Shown in pieces: positions 8,503 through 17,015 of a stretch of DNA of 33,542 bases. The position numbers and the translations under genes were made by a program. The notes under the pieces were generated by a model that was not told where the DNA came from, did no database searches, and was given only the letters and a program-made list of their open reading frames with translations. The stretch covers positions 1-33,542 of the forward strand of contig JAQRMX010000027.1 in assembly GCA_028599125.1 (NCBI GenBank), in the 5' to 3' direction. This DNA is from Alphaproteobacteria bacterium (GTDB lineage Bacteria > Pseudomonadota > Alphaproteobacteria > Rhizobiales > NORP267). The number at the start of each line of letters is the position of its first letter. Positions within the stretch are counted from its first letter, which is position 1.

Positions 8503-8976
8503 ATGCGTACCTATTCGGCGAAGCCGGATGAAATGAAAATGAAGAGAAAATGGTTTGTCGTTGATGCAGAAGGCCTTATCGTTGGCCGTCTCGCCTCTTT
8601 CATCGCTTCCCGTCTCCGTGGAAAACACGATCCGCTTTACACACCACATACAGACTGCGGTGACAGTATTGTTGTTGTCAACGCAAAAAAAGTCGCTTTG
8701 ACCGGACAGAAGCGTCAGAATAAAGTTTATTATCGCCACTCTGGATATCCAGGGGGAATTAAGGGAACCACTGCGCTTGAAATTCTGGAAGGAAAATATC
8801 CGGAACGCGTCCTCATGAAAGCAGTAGAGCGAATGATCCCCCGTGGATCTTTGGGGCGTCGTCAGTTGGGTAAATTGCATGTCTATGCGGGTGAAACTCA
8901 TCCACATCAGGCCCAAGAGCCTGAATTCATTGACGTAGCCGCTTTAAACATCAAGAATCGGGAAAGAAAAGCATGA
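8503..8976 (+). CDS. rplM: 50S ribosomal protein L13
   Basis: L13 is an early-assembling large-subunit protein. The 157-aa product has the family pattern [59 protein letters not shown] and the signature [22 protein letters not shown], all in the normal order. The N-terminus ([17 protein letters not shown]) is the slightly long form seen in alphaproteobacteria. A strong GGAGG ribosome-binding site precedes the ATG. The stop overlaps the rpsI start by 4 nt, so the pair is an operon as in most bacteria. Confidence 0.97.
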
Positions 8977-9455
8977 ATGAGCAAGATATTCAGCCTACGG
9001 ACACTGCGGAAAAGGTAACCCCGCTTCTCACCGCAACACCGTCCCTTCGTGAGCAAAAGCTTGACAGCTACGGACGTTCTTATGCCACAGGTCGCAGAAA
9101 AAGTTCCGTTGCCCGTGTCTGGGTAAAGCGTGGAACAGGAAAGATCCTTGTCAACGGGAAAGATTCCAGCAGCTATTTCGCTCGCTCAGCTCTCAGAATT
9201 GTCCTTGAAAAACCTCTGAGCGTTACGGAACGCAGGGAAGAACTTGACGTTATGTGTACAGTTAAGGGTGGTGGTCTTTCCGGACAAGCCGGTGCCATTC
9301 GGCATGGCCTGTCGCGGGCTTTGGTTCTGTACGAGCCAGCCTTGCATATATCTCTCAAGAAAAGCGGATTTATTACCAGAGATTCACGTATCGTAGAACG
9401 GAAAAAATATGGAAGACGTAAAGCACGTCGTTCTTTTCAGTTTTCAAAGCGCTGA
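8973..9455 (+). CDS. rpsI: 30S ribosomal protein S9
   Basis: S9 sits in the head of the small subunit and its C-terminal tail reaches the P-site tRNA. The 160-aa product has an N-terminal extension of about 30 residues common in alphaproteobacteria, then [26 protein letters not shown], the [19 protein letters not shown] signature and the basic tail ending [17 protein letters not shown]. The terminal KR/SKR end is the conserved P-site-contacting tail. It overlaps rplM by 4 nt. No clear intrinsic terminator follows; a gap of about 1.06 kb does. Confidence 0.97.
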
Positions 9456-10518: not shown

Positions 10519-12123
10519 TTACAAAAAACGCATCTCTTCCAGCAGGTCCGGAAGATCATTTTCATAAAGAATAACATTCCGTGCCTCTTTACCATAAAGT
10601 TCCAGAATCACACGGTGGGCTTCAGAAAAATTCTGAACACCGGAATAGTCTATACCTGCATGAAACAGGGCAGAAATAAAAGTCGGTATCCGAGAGGGAT
10701 TAACGACATACACTCTATCGCAGAGCCCCTTACAAAATAACCCGAGCTCTTCATGAACCTGATCGTGCAAATAACCAAGCTCAACAAGACCCGGCGTCAC
10801 AAGAATGGCCATTCCTCCCCTTTCACGCGCAAGTTGTGAAAGAATCTGTACTGCATTTTTAAAACCTACCTCATTCGCGTTATAGGAATCATCAAGTATG
10901 AGCAGCTTCCCTTCATTTTCTTTCTTCTGGAGACGGTGGGGAATTTGTTCAACCCTGCTCGTTATGAAAGGAAGTCTTTTAATAATCTTGGGATCAATTC
11001 TGGAGGCCATAACAATGGCCAACGCAGAATTTATGACATTATGTGCACCAAGCAACGGTAAGCGGTAAACCATCTGGAATTCATGAGCACACCGACCCTG
11101 CAATTCAATCTCCCACATACCATCAACAAAATCTGCTCTCTTGATCCATATATCAGCCTCCTCATCAAATCCGACAGAGATCAATTGTGAACCGTAATAA
11201 GATTTGAGCTTTCTGAAAGGCTGAAACTGCAAAACATCTGCATTAAGAACAATCTGGCCGCCAGCTTTGCAGACCGATTCGACAAGTTCTGATTTTGCAC
11301 GGGCAATCGTTTCAATATTCCCAAACCGTTCAATATGAGTATCCCCGATAGCTGTAACAATACCATGATGAGGTCGGATAAAAGAACAAAGCCGGCAAAT
11401 TGAACCAAGCCCATACGCACCCATCTCGGCAATGAAATAACAGTGCCCCCACTGCAGCCGTTCTCGAATATGGCGCGTTAGCCCAAGCTCAGTGTTTACA
11501 CTGCCACGACTGTAGAAAACTGGTCCGGACAGACTCAAAAATTCTGCACATATATGCTTTACCGTCGTTTTTCCAAATGACCCTGTAATACCGATCCGCA
11601 GGGGATCCATACGTTTGAGTTTGTTTTTCGCGCTTTCGATATAATGACGGTTAATCTGCTTCTGAAACGGAATAAGAAGGATATTAGCAAAAAGCAGGAA
11701 CAGGGGAAGAACCTGGAGAAGAAAAAGAATAAACAATGGATGCCCTCGACCCAACAGAAGCGCTATTAAAGCCGGAATTATTGAAACCCAATAGATCCGC
11801 TTAGCGCGTTCTGTATAAATCAATGGCTTTTTATAGGTATAGGAACGTTCCTGCCAGGCGATGATGAGAATCAGAATAGAACATACCAAAAGCGGTAAAA
11901 AACCAGCGTTCCACAGCATGCGCTCGGCAAAAAGGACAAATAAAAGAAGGCTGGCCTTGATATCAAACAGGCGGACACGAAAAATAGTATAAACGTAGCG
12001 CGCCGAGTCATATTCTTCCTGTTGAAAATAAGCAAGAAGACTTGCAATACGAACGACTGTCAAACATCCACCTACAAAAATAAGAAAGAGCGCTCCCGCA
12101 CTCTCCGCTACATTTTCGATCAC
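10519..12123 (-). CDS. Membrane-anchored MurF-like Mur ligase family protein
   Basis: Mur ligases form amide bonds by activating a carboxylate with ATP. The 534-aa protein begins with a membrane region of about four to five segments (about residues 10-30, 56-70, 74-90, 111-125 and 129-153), absent from ordinary cytosolic MurF. A full ligase follows: P-loop GITGSFGKTT (178-187), EMGAYG (233-238), the conserved HIERFGN (263-269), ARAKSEL with the position of the carbamylated lysine (274-280), GAHNVINSALAI (359-370) and the MurF-type DDSYNAN (411-417). Catalytic features look intact. It overlaps the hydrolase gene by 4 nt, with a Ddl-like gene divergent beyond. It could act on a lipid-linked or membrane-proximal peptide acceptor. 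Being the housekeeping MurF is possible but less likely given the membrane domain. Confidence 0.8.
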   Translation of the reverse strand: MIENVAESAGALFLIFVGGCLTVVRIASLLAYFQQEEYDSARYVYTIFRVRLFDIKASLLLFVLFAERMLWNAGFLPLLVCSILILIIAWQERSYTYKKPLIYTERAKRIYWVSIIPALIALLLGRGHPLFILFLLQVLPLFLLFANILLIPFQKQINRHYIESAKNKLKRMDPLRIGITGSFGKTTVKHICAEFLSLSGPVFYSRGSVNTELGLTRHIRERLQWGHCYFIAEMGAYGLGSICRLCSFIRPHHGIVTAIGDTHIERFGNIETIARAKSELVESVCKAGGQIVLNADVLQFQPFRKLKSYYGSQLISVGFDEEADIWIKRADFVDGMWEIELQGRCAHEFQMVYRLPLLGAHNVINSALAIVMASRIDPKIIKRLPFITSRVEQIPHRLQKKENEGKLLILDDSYNANEVGFKNAVQILSQLARERGGMAILVTPGLVELGYLHDQVHEELGLFCKGLCDRVYVVNPSRIPTFISALFHAGIDYSGVQNFSEAHRVILELYGKEARNVILYENDLPDLLEEMRFL

Positions 12124-12866
12124 GCAAGCCCCTCCCTGACTGCTAGTGCAATCTGATGTTTTCCTCGACTGAGTATAGAAAAATGGTCAAACACAGGACA
12201 TTCAATAAATACGGAATCAGGAATGAGACGGTGAAATCTTCGGCCAATTTCAGGAGGAGTTACTATATCACCCTCCCCGTAAATCAATGTGGACGGGCAG
12301 TGAACCCTATTAATTTCCGGTAGCAGATTTTCCGAAACAACATGAAGAAAAACATCACGCAGCCCCAATGAGCGACTTTGTACATAGTCAGGACTTCCAT
12401 ACCGTTCCTCAAGCGCAATTAAGGCTGTCCCGGAACCGACAAGATGGCGGGCAAGTCTGAAACAGATCAACCTATAAGCGTTACGCAACCAAACAGATAA
12501 AGGCAAAGAGCAGGGCAACCCCGCTCCTGCCACAATTAACAAATGCCTTATCCCTGAATCCTGATGCGATGCAAGGCATAAACCAATACGCCCACCGAAT
12601 GAGTGCCCAACCCACATAAATTCCTTCAACCCCAAATGATTCTTAAGATATCGTACCAGGTATGTGGCATAGTCCCGTGAGCCCCATGCTTCCTCCGGAG
12701 GCTCACTCATACCAAAGCCCGGAAGATCAAGCAAAAGACTATTGGCAAAGGGAGCAATTGCCTCTGCAACTGGAATAAAGTCGTGATGTGAACGGCCCCA
12801 CCCGTGGCCAAAGACAACATCAGGCATGCCCTGAGTGCCAATTCTAATACTATGAGGTAGTTTCAT
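12120..12866 (-). CDS. Alpha/beta-fold hydrolase
   Basis: The protein is a complete alpha/beta hydrolase: oxyanion-hole region GHGWGRS (26-32 from the upstream start), the strand-turn DLPGFGMS, nucleophile elbow GHSFGG with Ser95, acid YGEGDIVTPP with Asp206 and FDHFSIL with His234 (track numbering). No signal peptide is visible, so it is probably cytosolic. The track ORF starts at 12884; I prefer the ATG at 12866, which has AAGGAAG about 5 nt upstream, whereas 12884 has no good site. Its stop overlaps the start of the MurF-like gene by 4 nt, so the two are co-transcribed. It may hydrolyse an ester, thioester or amide in the same pathway. Homologues include BioH-like carboxylesterases, but the substrate cannot be read from sequence. 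Confidence 0.85.
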   Translation of the reverse strand: MKLPHSIRIGTQGMPDVVFGHGWGRSHHDFIPVAEAIAPFANSLLLDLPGFGMSEPPEEAWGSRDYATYLVRYLKNHLGLKEFMWVGHSFGGRIGLCLASHQDSGIRHLLIVAGAGLPCSLPLSVWLRNAYRLICFRLARHLVGSGTALIALEERYGSPDYVQSRSLGLRDVFLHVVSENLLPEINRVHCPSTLIYGEGDIVTPPEIGRRFHRLIPDSVFIECPVFDHFSILSRGKHQIALAVREGLA

Positions 12867-12985
12867 CCATCTTCCTTGTATCATTAATTATTCTTCGCAA
12901 GAGTATGGAGCATAAAAAATAAGATTGCCAGAAAGTCTGAAACCGTTCAGAAGGAAAAAGATGGATCTCTCGGAAAGATAAACTC

Positions 12986-14176
12986 ATGAAAGACAAATTG
13001 ACAGGTTTTACAACAGGCCTGCGAGATACAAGAAAAAAATTGAATATCGCGGTCATATTCGGAGGCGCAAGTGAAGAGTGTGACGTTAGCGTCATTAGCG
13101 CACAACAGATGATGGACGCGGTAGACCATCGCAGAATTAACGCTATTCCGATCTACATGGATTTTGAAAATCGATTTTGCACAGGACCGTCTCTCCGAGA
13201 TATCAAGACATTCAGGCCCAAACCGCACGGACTTCAGACGGTCACATTTCAATGGTCTGCGGACGGCCCTGTCATTCAAAAGGAAAATGGCAGGATAACT
13301 CCTGTTGATTGTATCTTTCCTGTCCTTCACGGCTCTTTTGGAGAAGACGGAAGAGTTCAGTCTTATTTCGAATTACTTGGTATCCCAATCGTCGGATTTA
13401 CAGCTACGAATTCAGCCATCGCTATACGAAAAGACGCAACAAAAGCACTCGTTAAATCTGTTGGTGTTAGTGTGCTGGACCATATAAAAATCAGCTACTC
13501 CCAATGGATAAAAGATCAATCTATTCCTGAAACAGACGCACAAAAATTAGGCTACCCTGTTATTATCAAGCCCGCAAACCTTGGTTCAAGCATTGGCGTC
13601 GGAGTAGCCCACAATGAAGAAGAAGCCCATTATCTCATTGAATATATCCTCAGATATGACTGGCTCGTTCTAATAGAGCCAAAAATTAATAATCTTTGTG
13701 AATTCAATATTGCGATTCTGATAAGAAATGAAGACGTGAAATTTTCTGCAATTGAACAGCCGAAAAATGATGCAGACCTCCTAGATTTCAAGAATAAATA
13801 TTTTTCACCTTCAGTGAGCACGAAATCAGACATCCCCCACTCTGGAGGCATGATCTCTCTTTCACGGAAAATCAATCCGGATATTCCTATGAAACTGGAA
13901 GAAAAAATACGTCATTTTGCAAAGAAAGCTTTCCTCATTCTTGGCGGCAGAGGATGCCCGAGAATTGACTTCCTCTATGATGAAAAAACAGAAGAGCTTT
14001 GGTTTAATGAAATTAATGCCATCCCGGGTTCATATGCTTTCTTCCTTTGGGAAGCGGCCCCTGAACCTATGCTATTTCCAGAGCTGATCTATCACCTGAT
14101 AAATGAAGCCCTTCAAGATTCTATCAAGAATTTTAATGATCCCGTTCCTCAAGATGCAACCCTGTTGCAACGGTAA
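12986..14176 (+). CDS. D-alanine-D-alanine ligase-like ATP-grasp protein
   Basis: Ddl joins two D-alanines using ATP to make the terminus of the peptidoglycan stem peptide. The 396-aa protein is near the upper end of Ddl lengths. It has FGGASEECDVS (conserved Glu retained), LHGSFGEDG, the IKPANLGSSIG loop, KNKY (the Tyr linked with D-Ala use in Ddl), RIDFL and FNEINAIPGS. ATP-grasp and Mg-binding residues therefore look intact. Unusual points are Cys for His in the first motif, QSYFEL for the usual QGxLEL, and PGSYAFFLWEA for the usual PGxTxxS stretch near the substrate pocket. It is divergent from the hydrolase and MurF-like genes across about 120 nt. It could be the housekeeping ddl or a paralogue making a different D-Ala-D-X dipeptide. 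The start has GGAAAGA 8 nt upstream. Confidence 0.82.
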   Translation: MKDKLTGFTTGLRDTRKKLNIAVIFGGASEECDVSVISAQQMMDAVDHRRINAIPIYMDFENRFCTGPSLRDIKTFRPKPHGLQTVTFQWSADGPVIQKENGRITPVDCIFPVLHGSFGEDGRVQSYFELLGIPIVGFTATNSAIAIRKDATKALVKSVGVSVLDHIKISYSQWIKDQSIPETDAQKLGYPVIIKPANLGSSIGVGVAHNEEEAHYLIEYILRYDWLVLIEPKINNLCEFNIAILIRNEDVKFSAIEQPKNDADLLDFKNKYFSPSVSTKSDIPHSGGMISLSRKINPDIPMKLEEKIRHFAKKAFLILGGRGCPRIDFLYDEKTEELWFNEINAIPGSYAFFLWEAAPEPMLFPELIYHLINEALQDSIKNFNDPVPQDATLLQR

Positions 14177-14384: not shown

Positions 14385-15665
14385 ATGAGGTTTGAACGCA
14401 TCCCTGGTTTCAGCACGCGTGCGATTCATGCGGGAGCTACACCGGCATCCCTGAATAAAACGGTAGATCATCAGGCCGCATCCCTTGTATCTGTTGAAAA
14501 TGTCCATACGCTTTACATGATGAGACAATACATACCGGAAAATCCTGAAACAGAAGGACATCCTGTTTGCGTAGCTCTGGAAGAGCGGGTTGCCGCACTG
14601 GAAGGGGGAACAGCTGCTGTCGCCGTTTCCTCAATCAATACAGCACAATTTCTTGTTTTTTATGCACTTATGGAACCTGGGGATGAATTCGTGACAGCAC
14701 GACAGCCCTCCGGTTCCCTGATCAGTCGATTCTGCGAAGTTCCGGGGAAGTGTGGATGGAAGGTCAAATGGGCTGAAATTGATGATATTTCTACCTTTGA
14801 AAACGCAATCACACCCAGAACAAAGGCGATCTTTGTCGAAACAATCGCAAACTCAGGCGGGAAAATCACTGATATTCAGGCTATCTCAAAAGTTGCGCAC
14901 CGAGCCAGGGTTCCATTGATCGTTGACAATAGCCTGGCATCTCCATACCTATGTCGGCCAATTGAACACGGCGCAGACATCGTTTTGCATAATATTAGTC
15001 ATTTTCTCAGCAATCATGGCAACATAACAGGAGGTATCATCGTTGAAGCAGGCTCATTCAACTGGTTACAGGGAAAAAAATACCCCACTTTTTGCAAGCC
15101 CTGCCCCTTCTATAACGGAAAGGTTTTGGCCGAGGAATTCGGGAATTTTGCATTTGCCACAGCCTGCCGCGCATTAAGCCTCAACAATTTCGAAGCCGCT
15201 TTACCACCTTTCAAAGCCTTAATGGTCCTTGATAGCATTGAAACACTTCCTTTGCGCATGCAACGCCATTGTGATAATGCCCGGTCAGTTGCAGAATTTC
15301 TCAACGACCACCCTGACGTCGCATGGATCAATTATGCCGGCCTTCAAGGACACCGTTATTACAAGCAGGCACTCAAATATTGTCCGGATGGTATCGGTGC
15401 AACCTTCACCTTCGGCTTGAATGGTACAAGCGATAATGTGGACAAGTTTATCTCAAGAGTCGAACTCTTGGGCATGAGAAATGACGCAGGGGGGACCCGC
15501 AGTGCACTTATTCGTCCCATGTCCATCATGCCTGCTGGTGAAACTACACAAAATACACATGTCACAGAAGGTACGATACGTTTGTTCGTAGGACTTGAAG
15601 ATAAAGCCGATATCATTGCCGATCTTGATCAAGCTCTCTCACCAACACCAAAGCAGGATATATAG
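14385..15665 (+). CDS. MetY/Cys-Met-metabolism family protein lacking the PLP lysine
   Basis: The 426-aa protein follows the O-acetylhomoserine sulfhydrylase (MetY) fold from end to end: RAIHAG near the start, LEERVAALEGGTAAVAVSS, PRTKAIFVETIANSGG, PLIVDNSLASPYLCRPIEHGADIV, GNITGGIIVEAGSFNW and a C-terminal TEGTIRLFVGLEDKADIIADLDQAL. The canonical HSATKF motif is HNISHF here, so the Schiff-base lysine is His206 (CAT at 15000-15002). The YxxxxNPT and LYGGS motifs near PLP and the HPAST substrate motif are also altered (ENPET, QPSGS, RPMSI). The frame is intact and near full length. It is therefore probably not a PLP transferase; a regulatory or structural role, or recent inactivation, are alternatives. 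Convergent with ctaA. Confidence 0.85.
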   Translation: MRFERIPGFSTRAIHAGATPASLNKTVDHQAASLVSVENVHTLYMMRQYIPENPETEGHPVCVALEERVAALEGGTAAVAVSSINTAQFLVFYALMEPGDEFVTARQPSGSLISRFCEVPGKCGWKVKWAEIDDISTFENAITPRTKAIFVETIANSGGKITDIQAISKVAHRARVPLIVDNSLASPYLCRPIEHGADIVLHNISHFLSNHGNITGGIIVEAGSFNWLQGKKYPTFCKPCPFYNGKVLAEEFGNFAFATACRALSLNNFEAALPPFKALMVLDSIETLPLRMQRHCDNARSVAEFLNDHPDVAWINYAGLQGHRYYKQALKYCPDGIGATFTFGLNGTSDNVDKFISRVELLGMRNDAGGTRSALIRPMSIMPAGETTQNTHVTEGTIRLFVGLEDKADIIADLDQALSPTPKQDI

Positions 15666-15727: not shown

Positions 15728-16834
15728 TTATGCCTCCCCAGACTTTTCCTCGCTCTTCGGCCTTTTATGCGGAGATTTTTGCGTAGGAAAAGCAGAAAAA
15801 CATGAGAAATGAGACAGAGAAGCAGCAAAAACAACAAGAGCAAAGATCTGGTGCAAAAGAGCAATAAGAAGCGATACACCTGAAAGGAGTGTCCATACGC
15901 CTAAACCCAGTTGAACGGAAACAAGAAAAAAAAGAAGCGTGGCGCTCTTTTTCTCAGCCGCTGGGGCATAAAATGCGAACCAAACTGCCAATAACCAGAT
16001 TAAATAAGCCAAAATACGATGATCAAATTGTACTGTAAGCGCGTTTTCGAATAGGTTAAGGTACCAGGGTTGCATCACAAACAGACCGCCCGGGATGAAA
16101 GACTCGTCCATCAATGGCCAGCTTGTATACCCCATACCTGCATCCAATCCGGCAACAAGTGCACCTAAGAAACACTGAAAAAAAAGCAATCCCGCCAGTA
16201 TGCCGGCAACAAAATGCATAGAGCCATCAAAAGACCGGGAACCTTTCCAACCGCTCACACCCATCCAAGTCCACCATAACAGACCAAAAATAGTGAATGC
16301 CATACAAAGATGTAGCGCAAGACGGTACTGGCTCACATCTACACGAACGGATAAGCCGCTCTTCACCATATACCAGCCAATACCCCCCTGAACCGCAATC
16401 AGGGTAAATATAGCGAGTAATCGCAAAACCAGCCAATGCGAGAGATGTCCCCTCACCCAGAAAAAAATAAACGGAAAAATAAAGACGAAAGCCAGAAAAC
16501 GGGCTAAAAAGCGATGCCCCCACTCCCACCAGTAAATAAATCTGAATTCACTCAGACTCATGTCCTGATTTACAGACTGATATTCAGGTATTTTCTGATA
16601 GGCTGCAAACGCTTCACGCCAGGCACTCTCACCCAAAGGAGGGATCAGGCCGGATAATAATTGCCACTCAGTAATAGACAAACCAGAATCAGTCAATCGT
16701 GTCGCTCCCCCGACAGCGATCATAATAATGATCAGAAATAACAAACAAATCAGCCATACACGGACAGCAAAACAAACAGAAAAAGATGGAAACTTCACAG
16801 CTTCATCAACCCCACCGTAAACTGCAAGAGACAT
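15728..16834 (-). CDS. ctaA: COX15/CtaA haem A synthase
   Basis: Haem A synthase oxidises the C8 methyl group of haem O to a formyl group, making haem A for aa3-type oxidases in the inner membrane. The protein has about eight hydrophobic segments and the COX15-type motifs GGATRLTDSGLSITEW, YWWEWGHRFLAR with a haem-ligand His, HLCMAF, a GALVAGLDAGMGYTSWPLM loop, QFDHRILAY and LLHQIFAL with further His ligands. The track ORF runs to a GTG at 16900 without a ribosome-binding site. I prefer the ATG at 16834 (368 aa), which gives the usual short cytosolic N-terminus, though its ribosome-binding site is also weak. DUF2842 lies divergently upstream, an alphaproteobacterial neighbourhood. Confidence 0.92.
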   Translation of the reverse strand: MSLAVYGGVDEAVKFPSFSVCFAVRVWLICLLFLIIIMIAVGGATRLTDSGLSITEWQLLSGLIPPLGESAWREAFAAYQKIPEYQSVNQDMSLSEFRFIYWWEWGHRFLARFLAFVFIFPFIFFWVRGHLSHWLVLRLLAIFTLIAVQGGIGWYMVKSGLSVRVDVSQYRLALHLCMAFTIFGLLWWTWMGVSGWKGSRSFDGSMHFVAGILAGLLFFQCFLGALVAGLDAGMGYTSWPLMDESFIPGGLFVMQPWYLNLFENALTVQFDHRILAYLIWLLAVWFAFYAPAAEKKSATLLFFLVSVQLGLGVWTLLSGVSLLIALLHQIFALVVFAASLSHFSCFSAFPTQKSPHKRPKSEEKSGEA

Positions 16835-17015
16835 GATAGACACCAAATCTCGATACAAAAAAGCACTTCCGGACCCGCAGGAAAATTTGCAATTATCCAC
16901 GGGACAAATTGTATTATTTCAAAATTAACATAAAAACTGTCTGGAGACGTAGACTTCTTTGCATAACCCGTCAATGATACAAAAAGGAAGACACTGAAAG
17001 AAAGATCACCTGTTC

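Follow-up and report, generated by a model that had tools for sequence, protein, structure and literature searches.

In a 33,542-nucleotide stretch of DNA (here, the window; contig C20), we identified an intact MetY-family gene whose product carries histidine in place of the lysine that forms the Schiff base with pyridoxal 5'-phosphate (PLP). The protein is probably a PLP-free pseudoenzyme, kept as an oligomer with a non-catalytic binding or scaffold function. Constraint on the scaffold and a stop-free frame, both seen in one genome, favor retention for some function other than catalysis, and that function we infer. The sole source of the variant is a draft genome of 1.43 Mb (estimated 99.8% complete), the lone member of its genus in a family represented by 6 genomes in the set that was searched. 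Its relatives are Hyphomicrobiales, and the Acetobacteraceae placement suggested by a first-pass annotation of this DNA was wrong.

Family membership and the PLP pocket

The gene (positions 14385 to 15665, forward strand, as are all the segments below) begins with ATG and runs for 426 codons with no internal stop. Its product matched PF01053 at 259.7 bits (cut-off, 27), which places it in the homology family, and the top NCBIfam model was that of OAH sulfhydrylase, NF004650; the earlier reading of an intact MetY-family frame of 426 codons therefore holds. The NF004650 score (461.6 bits) falls below the cut-off of 667, as does that for TIGR01326 (353.8 bits against 495.1), and the protein is not a MetY equivalog by either model. 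It shares full-length homology with MetY (O-acetylhomoserine sulfhydrylase/aminocarboxypropyltransferase; NF004650 and TIGR01326; structures 8sf5, 7kb0, and 8wko), and with the Hyphomicrobiales MetY proteins it shares up to 55% identity, a predicted fold, and a gene locus. Unlike MetY, it has no Schiff-base lysine, its phosphate cradle and substrate loop are changed, and it scores under both model cut-offs.

At the Schiff-base position, the codon CAT (15000 to 15002) encodes His206. The corresponding alignment column holds lysine in 154 of 154 homologues, a set that took in several of the least similar MetY matches from the order as well as 40%-identical paralogues, and histidine in the window protein alone. 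The lysine that forms the internal aldimine in PLP-dependent enzymes of Cys/Met metabolism is thus replaced by histidine, as first noted from the sequence. Because none of the protein's 17 lysines lies in a column able to take the family's catalytic lysine, an alternative Schiff-base residue, which had been raised as a way in which this reading might fail, could be ruled out. A general loss of PLP lysines or an odd genetic code was also rejected, since the PLP lysine is present in two other window proteins, SHMT and an ALAS-like protein, and the MetC of this genome is canonical.

The rest of the pocket was compared with the 12 PLP and substrate contacts listed for the cystathionine gamma-lyase (CGL) of L. 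plantarum (PMC7483736), which we transferred to the window protein by motif. Altered are Y43, R45, G73, S74, Y97, S191, S193, and K194, with S193 merely a change from Thr to Ser; N144, D169, S321, and R356 are retained. Where the family grips PLP with Y, R, G, Y, and S, the window protein has E55, E57, I84, S109, and N203.

These changes fall in discrete segments, in which we counted near-invariant columns, defined as those with 97% identity or more across the family (n = 119). The N-terminal strap (residues 1 to 62, 14385 to 14570) has small deletions and is changed in 16 of its 24 near-invariant columns, reading ENPETEGHP against the family's GNIYTRIGNPT, so that E55 and E57 stand where the family Tyr and Arg bind the PLP phosphate of the neighboring subunit. 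The first-pass annotation had described this change as ENPET for NPT; the change is real, but the loss that matters is that of the Tyr and Arg of YxR and not of NPT. Ile-Asn replaces the Gly-His of the phosphate loop (residues 84 and 85, 14634 to 14639) in the alignment. TARQPSGSLIS stands against AARQLYGGSIN (residues 104 to 114, 14694 to 14726), with loss of the PLP-stacking Tyr, and NISHFLSNHGN against S(A/L)TKFLGGHGN (residues 203 to 213, 14991 to 15023), with loss of the PLP-cradle Ser and the Lys and a change of Thr to Ser. Further along the chain, 6 of 8 near-invariant columns are changed in the LRD..SPxNAF segment (residues 264 to 284, 15174 to 15236), which we take to line the neighbor's active site, as in methionine gamma-lyase structures, and 12 of 16 in the substrate-side segment SHLANxGDTRSLIIHPASTTHRQ (residues 361 to 395, 15465 to 15569). 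The other motif changes reported earlier, HNISHF for HS(A/L)TKF, QPSGS for LYGGS, and RPMSI for HPAST, were all real.

On the opposite side of the ledger, the counterparts of four contacts in the CGL list are kept: Asn156 (14850 to 14852), for the Asn at PLP O3'; Asp181 (14925 to 14927), for the Asp at PLP N1; Ser373 (15501 to 15503), for the Ser whose backbone touches the substrate carboxylate; and Arg399 (15579 to 15581), for the Arg of the substrate alpha-carboxylate. At the PLP phosphate site, the neighbor's YxR, the Gly loop, and the Ser/Thr positions before the lysine have become E55, E57, I84, and N203, and only residue 205 (Thr to Ser) is a conservative change. Judged from the alignment, the protein has lost its phosphate site and its aldimine and kept the pocket floor. 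PLP binding is unlikely, because the phosphate site is both lost and reversed in charge.

An AlphaFold2 model built with the family alignment had a pLDDT of 78 and a pTM of 0.81, with confidence below 50 at residues 18 to 57 and 383 to 390, and its best PDB matches by Foldseek were MetY/OAHS structures (8sf6, 8wkr, and 7kb0). Folded without the alignment, the model had poor confidence, so the predicted fold draws on the canonical members of the family. The protein is thus an enzyme homologue without the required catalytic residues whose fold, by prediction, is kept, which is to say a pseudoenzyme.

The ancestral metY locus and the missing pathway

The gene for heme A synthase (ctaA, COX15-CtaA; 15728 to 16900, reverse strand) lies 62 bases downstream of the pseudoenzyme gene and is convergent with it. 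The same order, metY followed by convergent ctaA, marks the ancestral locus in relatives, with the two genes close by in 4 of 5 genomes of the same family. The pseudoenzyme gene also has a GC3 of 0.43, like other window genes. By synteny it descends from the lineage's original chromosomal metY and is not a duplicate; the ctaA synteny and host-like GC3 rule out horizontal replacement.

Profile searches of the 1.43-Mb genome found no second MetY and no MetZ, which excludes a duplicate beside a canonical copy. One other full-length PF01053 protein was clearly over the cut-off, a canonical cystathionine beta-lyase, MetC (L121, 1456 to 2649; over the TIGR01324 cut-off). The proposal that the variant might partner or regulate a true MetY or MetZ in the same cell therefore fails, as the genome encodes neither. 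Orthologues sharing His206, for which the first-pass annotation had advised a search, were found in none of 61 relatives, the 6 family genomes, 398 genomes of the order, the genome_contigs set, or viral contigs. Among the matches listed, no genome match exceeded 55% identity to the window protein, and no plasmid or phage match reached 60%.

MetX, the MetH B12 domain, MetE, and a CysK-type PALP protein were not found in the genome by profile. In the five family relatives, several PALP proteins are over the cut-off in 5 of 5, MetH is present in 5 of 5, and MetX in 2 of 5; MetX is a weak marker, with no strong match in 3 of the 5 relatives either. The single PALP match in the genome is threonine-synthase-like by length (a 496-amino-acid frame), and the genome retains homoserine dehydrogenase; threonine is therefore probably still made. 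With MetX, MetE, MetH, and CysK not found, the ancestral MetY reaction is left without a remaining pathway, and, with no methionine synthase, methionine synthesis could not draw on homocysteine from MetY. Automatic pipelines could label the protein O-acetylhomoserine sulfhydrylase and thereby credit the cell with a methionine route it does not have.

As a separate observation, MetC is kept though the genome encodes no cystathionine-forming PF01053 member. Since the genome has an alanine racemase, MetC need not have a D-Ala role.

Scaffold constraint and competing explanations

Across the protein, 50 of the 119 near-invariant columns are altered, and the alterations sit in clusters along the sequence (permutation p = 0.0015). 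Scaffold segments retain 52 of 60 such columns (87%) against 17 of 59 (29%) in active-site segments (Fisher p = 8e-11), a contrast that depends on active-site segments drawn around known motifs after the alignment was seen. Taken alone, the 11 family-conserved contacts from the literature show no significant excess of changes over the remaining conserved columns (Fisher p = 0.20). The conservation gradient is more telling than the segment contrast. In scaffold segments, the match to the consensus climbs with family conservation from about 0.4 to 0.87 (Spearman 0.36, p = 1e-9), whereas in active-site segments the two are unrelated (Spearman 0.03). Had the gene been decaying freely since a recent loss, both kinds of segment would be struck alike.

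The frame and the rate of change were also considered. Neutral simulations with 120 or 155 replaced positions produced 6 to 8 stop-creating changes on average and no stop-free run in 400, which makes the intact frame unexpected under neutral drift. At 0.905 substitutions per site, the terminal branch of the window protein is comparable to those of rpsI (0.866) and ctaA (0.939) from the same genome and longer than that of rplM (0.538), suggesting that the lineage evolves fast in general. The codon bias of the gene is 0.009, versus 0.05 to 0.13 for most window genes. The first-pass annotation had called the structural segments well conserved, in keeping with the 87% above. It had also argued for a pseudoenzyme over a single recent change, and this stands: the altered columns are many and clustered at the active site, the scaffold is constrained, and drift would be expected to break the frame.

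We favor a non-catalytic binding or scaffold protein, followed in order by a dying gene, a rebuilt enzyme, and a subunit associated with MetC. A dying gene is unlikely, though it is the best placed of the alternatives. It would be a metY made useless by loss of the methionine pathway and drifting neutrally, with no stop or frameshift yet. The reduced genome with its missing MetX, MetE, MetH, and CysK fits this explanation, as do the low codon bias, active-site segments that do not follow family conservation, and the lack of an orthologue that would show retention. Against it, drift that altered 71% of conserved active-site columns should have hit the scaffold equally, simulated neutral genes never stayed open at 120 or more replaced positions, and the branch is no longer than that of ctaA and close to that of rpsI.

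A pocket rebuilt for another reaction, working without PLP or with non-covalent PMP or PLP and His206 as acid/base, is quite improbable. There is precedent in ColD and E1, nucleotide-sugar 3-dehydratases of another fold-type-I family, which are active with PMP and in which histidine replaces the catalytic lysine and serves as acid/base (PMC8987622). The kept Asp181 (for PLP N1), Asn156 (for PLP O3'), and Arg399 (for the carboxylate) would suit such an enzyme, and PLP should be available, as PdxJ is encoded nearby. However, PMP binding in the active site has been reported for ColD and E1, and the window protein, which resembles them in fold type and in its histidine at the PLP-lysine position, lacks an intact PMP/PLP phosphate site: Tyr and Arg are both replaced by Glu, Ile stands for the loop Gly and Asn203 for Ser, and the stacking Tyr is lost. 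Nor does any sequence feature point to a new substrate.

Very improbable is a non-catalytic subunit in a mixed oligomer with MetC, the one remaining canonical family member, in the manner of the SPT1 (LCB1) subunit of serine palmitoyltransferase, which lacks the conserved lysine present in SPT2 (PMC6920741): MetC and the window protein are only 19% identical, the Tyr and Arg lent to a neighbor's active site are lost, and the two genes lie on different contigs.

The non-catalytic binding or scaffold protein that we favor could have arisen as follows. The lineage would first have lost the rest of its methionine and cysteine assimilation route, consistent with the profile searches. Constraint on the PLP pocket would then have lapsed, with the Lys, YxR strap, phosphate loop, stacking Tyr, and substrate loop all changed in the present sequence; the expected consequence is no internal aldimine and no hold on the phosphate, though both the loss of binding and this sequence of steps are presumed. 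The segment contrast and the stop-free frame suggest that the fold-type-I scaffold meanwhile stayed under purifying selection, its product still used. The protein would now act non-catalytically, most likely as an oligomer with a binding or scaffolding function. Asp181, Asn156, Ser373, and Arg399 on the old pocket floor could hold a small carboxylate ligand, and the protein may be a ligand sensor. The more specific idea that the scaffold has been reused as a PLP-free binding protein, in which these residues sense or carry a carboxylate metabolite or in which His206 forms a metal site with the family residues His202 and His211, is speculative and rather unlikely as it stands; if true, it would be a MetY-derived sensor in a bacterium that lost methionine synthesis.

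Known parallels and neighboring genes

The open-access literature searched describes no MetY pseudoenzyme. The earlier remark that this variant had not been seen described thus holds for MetY but not more widely, as K-to-H and lysine-less PLP-fold proteins are known in ColD/E1 and SPT1. SPT1 is likewise a fold-type-I homologue kept without its PLP lysine, but it works with a catalytic paralogue, whereas the window genome encodes no catalytic MetY or MetZ. Here, with no duplication and at the ancestral locus, a core-metabolism enzyme has lost both its pathway and its active site under continued constraint on its scaffold, and the protein offers a clear test case for pseudoenzymes arising by pathway loss in genome reduction.

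The neighboring genes point to no biochemical role for the pseudoenzyme, and scans for promoters gave sites no more numerous than in shuffles. Several neighbors are unusual in themselves. A MurF-like Mur ligase overlapping an alpha/beta hydrolase (10519 to 12884, reverse strand) matches in its middle and C domains, with a hydrophobic N-terminal part replacing the usual N domain, and nothing in the metY flanks of relatives matches it. It adjoins a 396-amino-acid D-Ala-D-Ala ligase (12986 to 14176, forward strand), the only Ddl-type match over 100 bits in the genome; Ddl frames of family relatives are roughly 307 to 333 amino acids. This ligase has a codon bias as low as that of the pseudoenzyme gene and is probably a replacement or rearrangement, since no counterpart was found in the metY flanks of relatives. 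The rplM-rpsI pair (8503 to 9455, forward strand) lies on the same strand as metY here and on the opposite strand, upstream of metY, in relatives, and its orientation is a local inversion or rearrangement.
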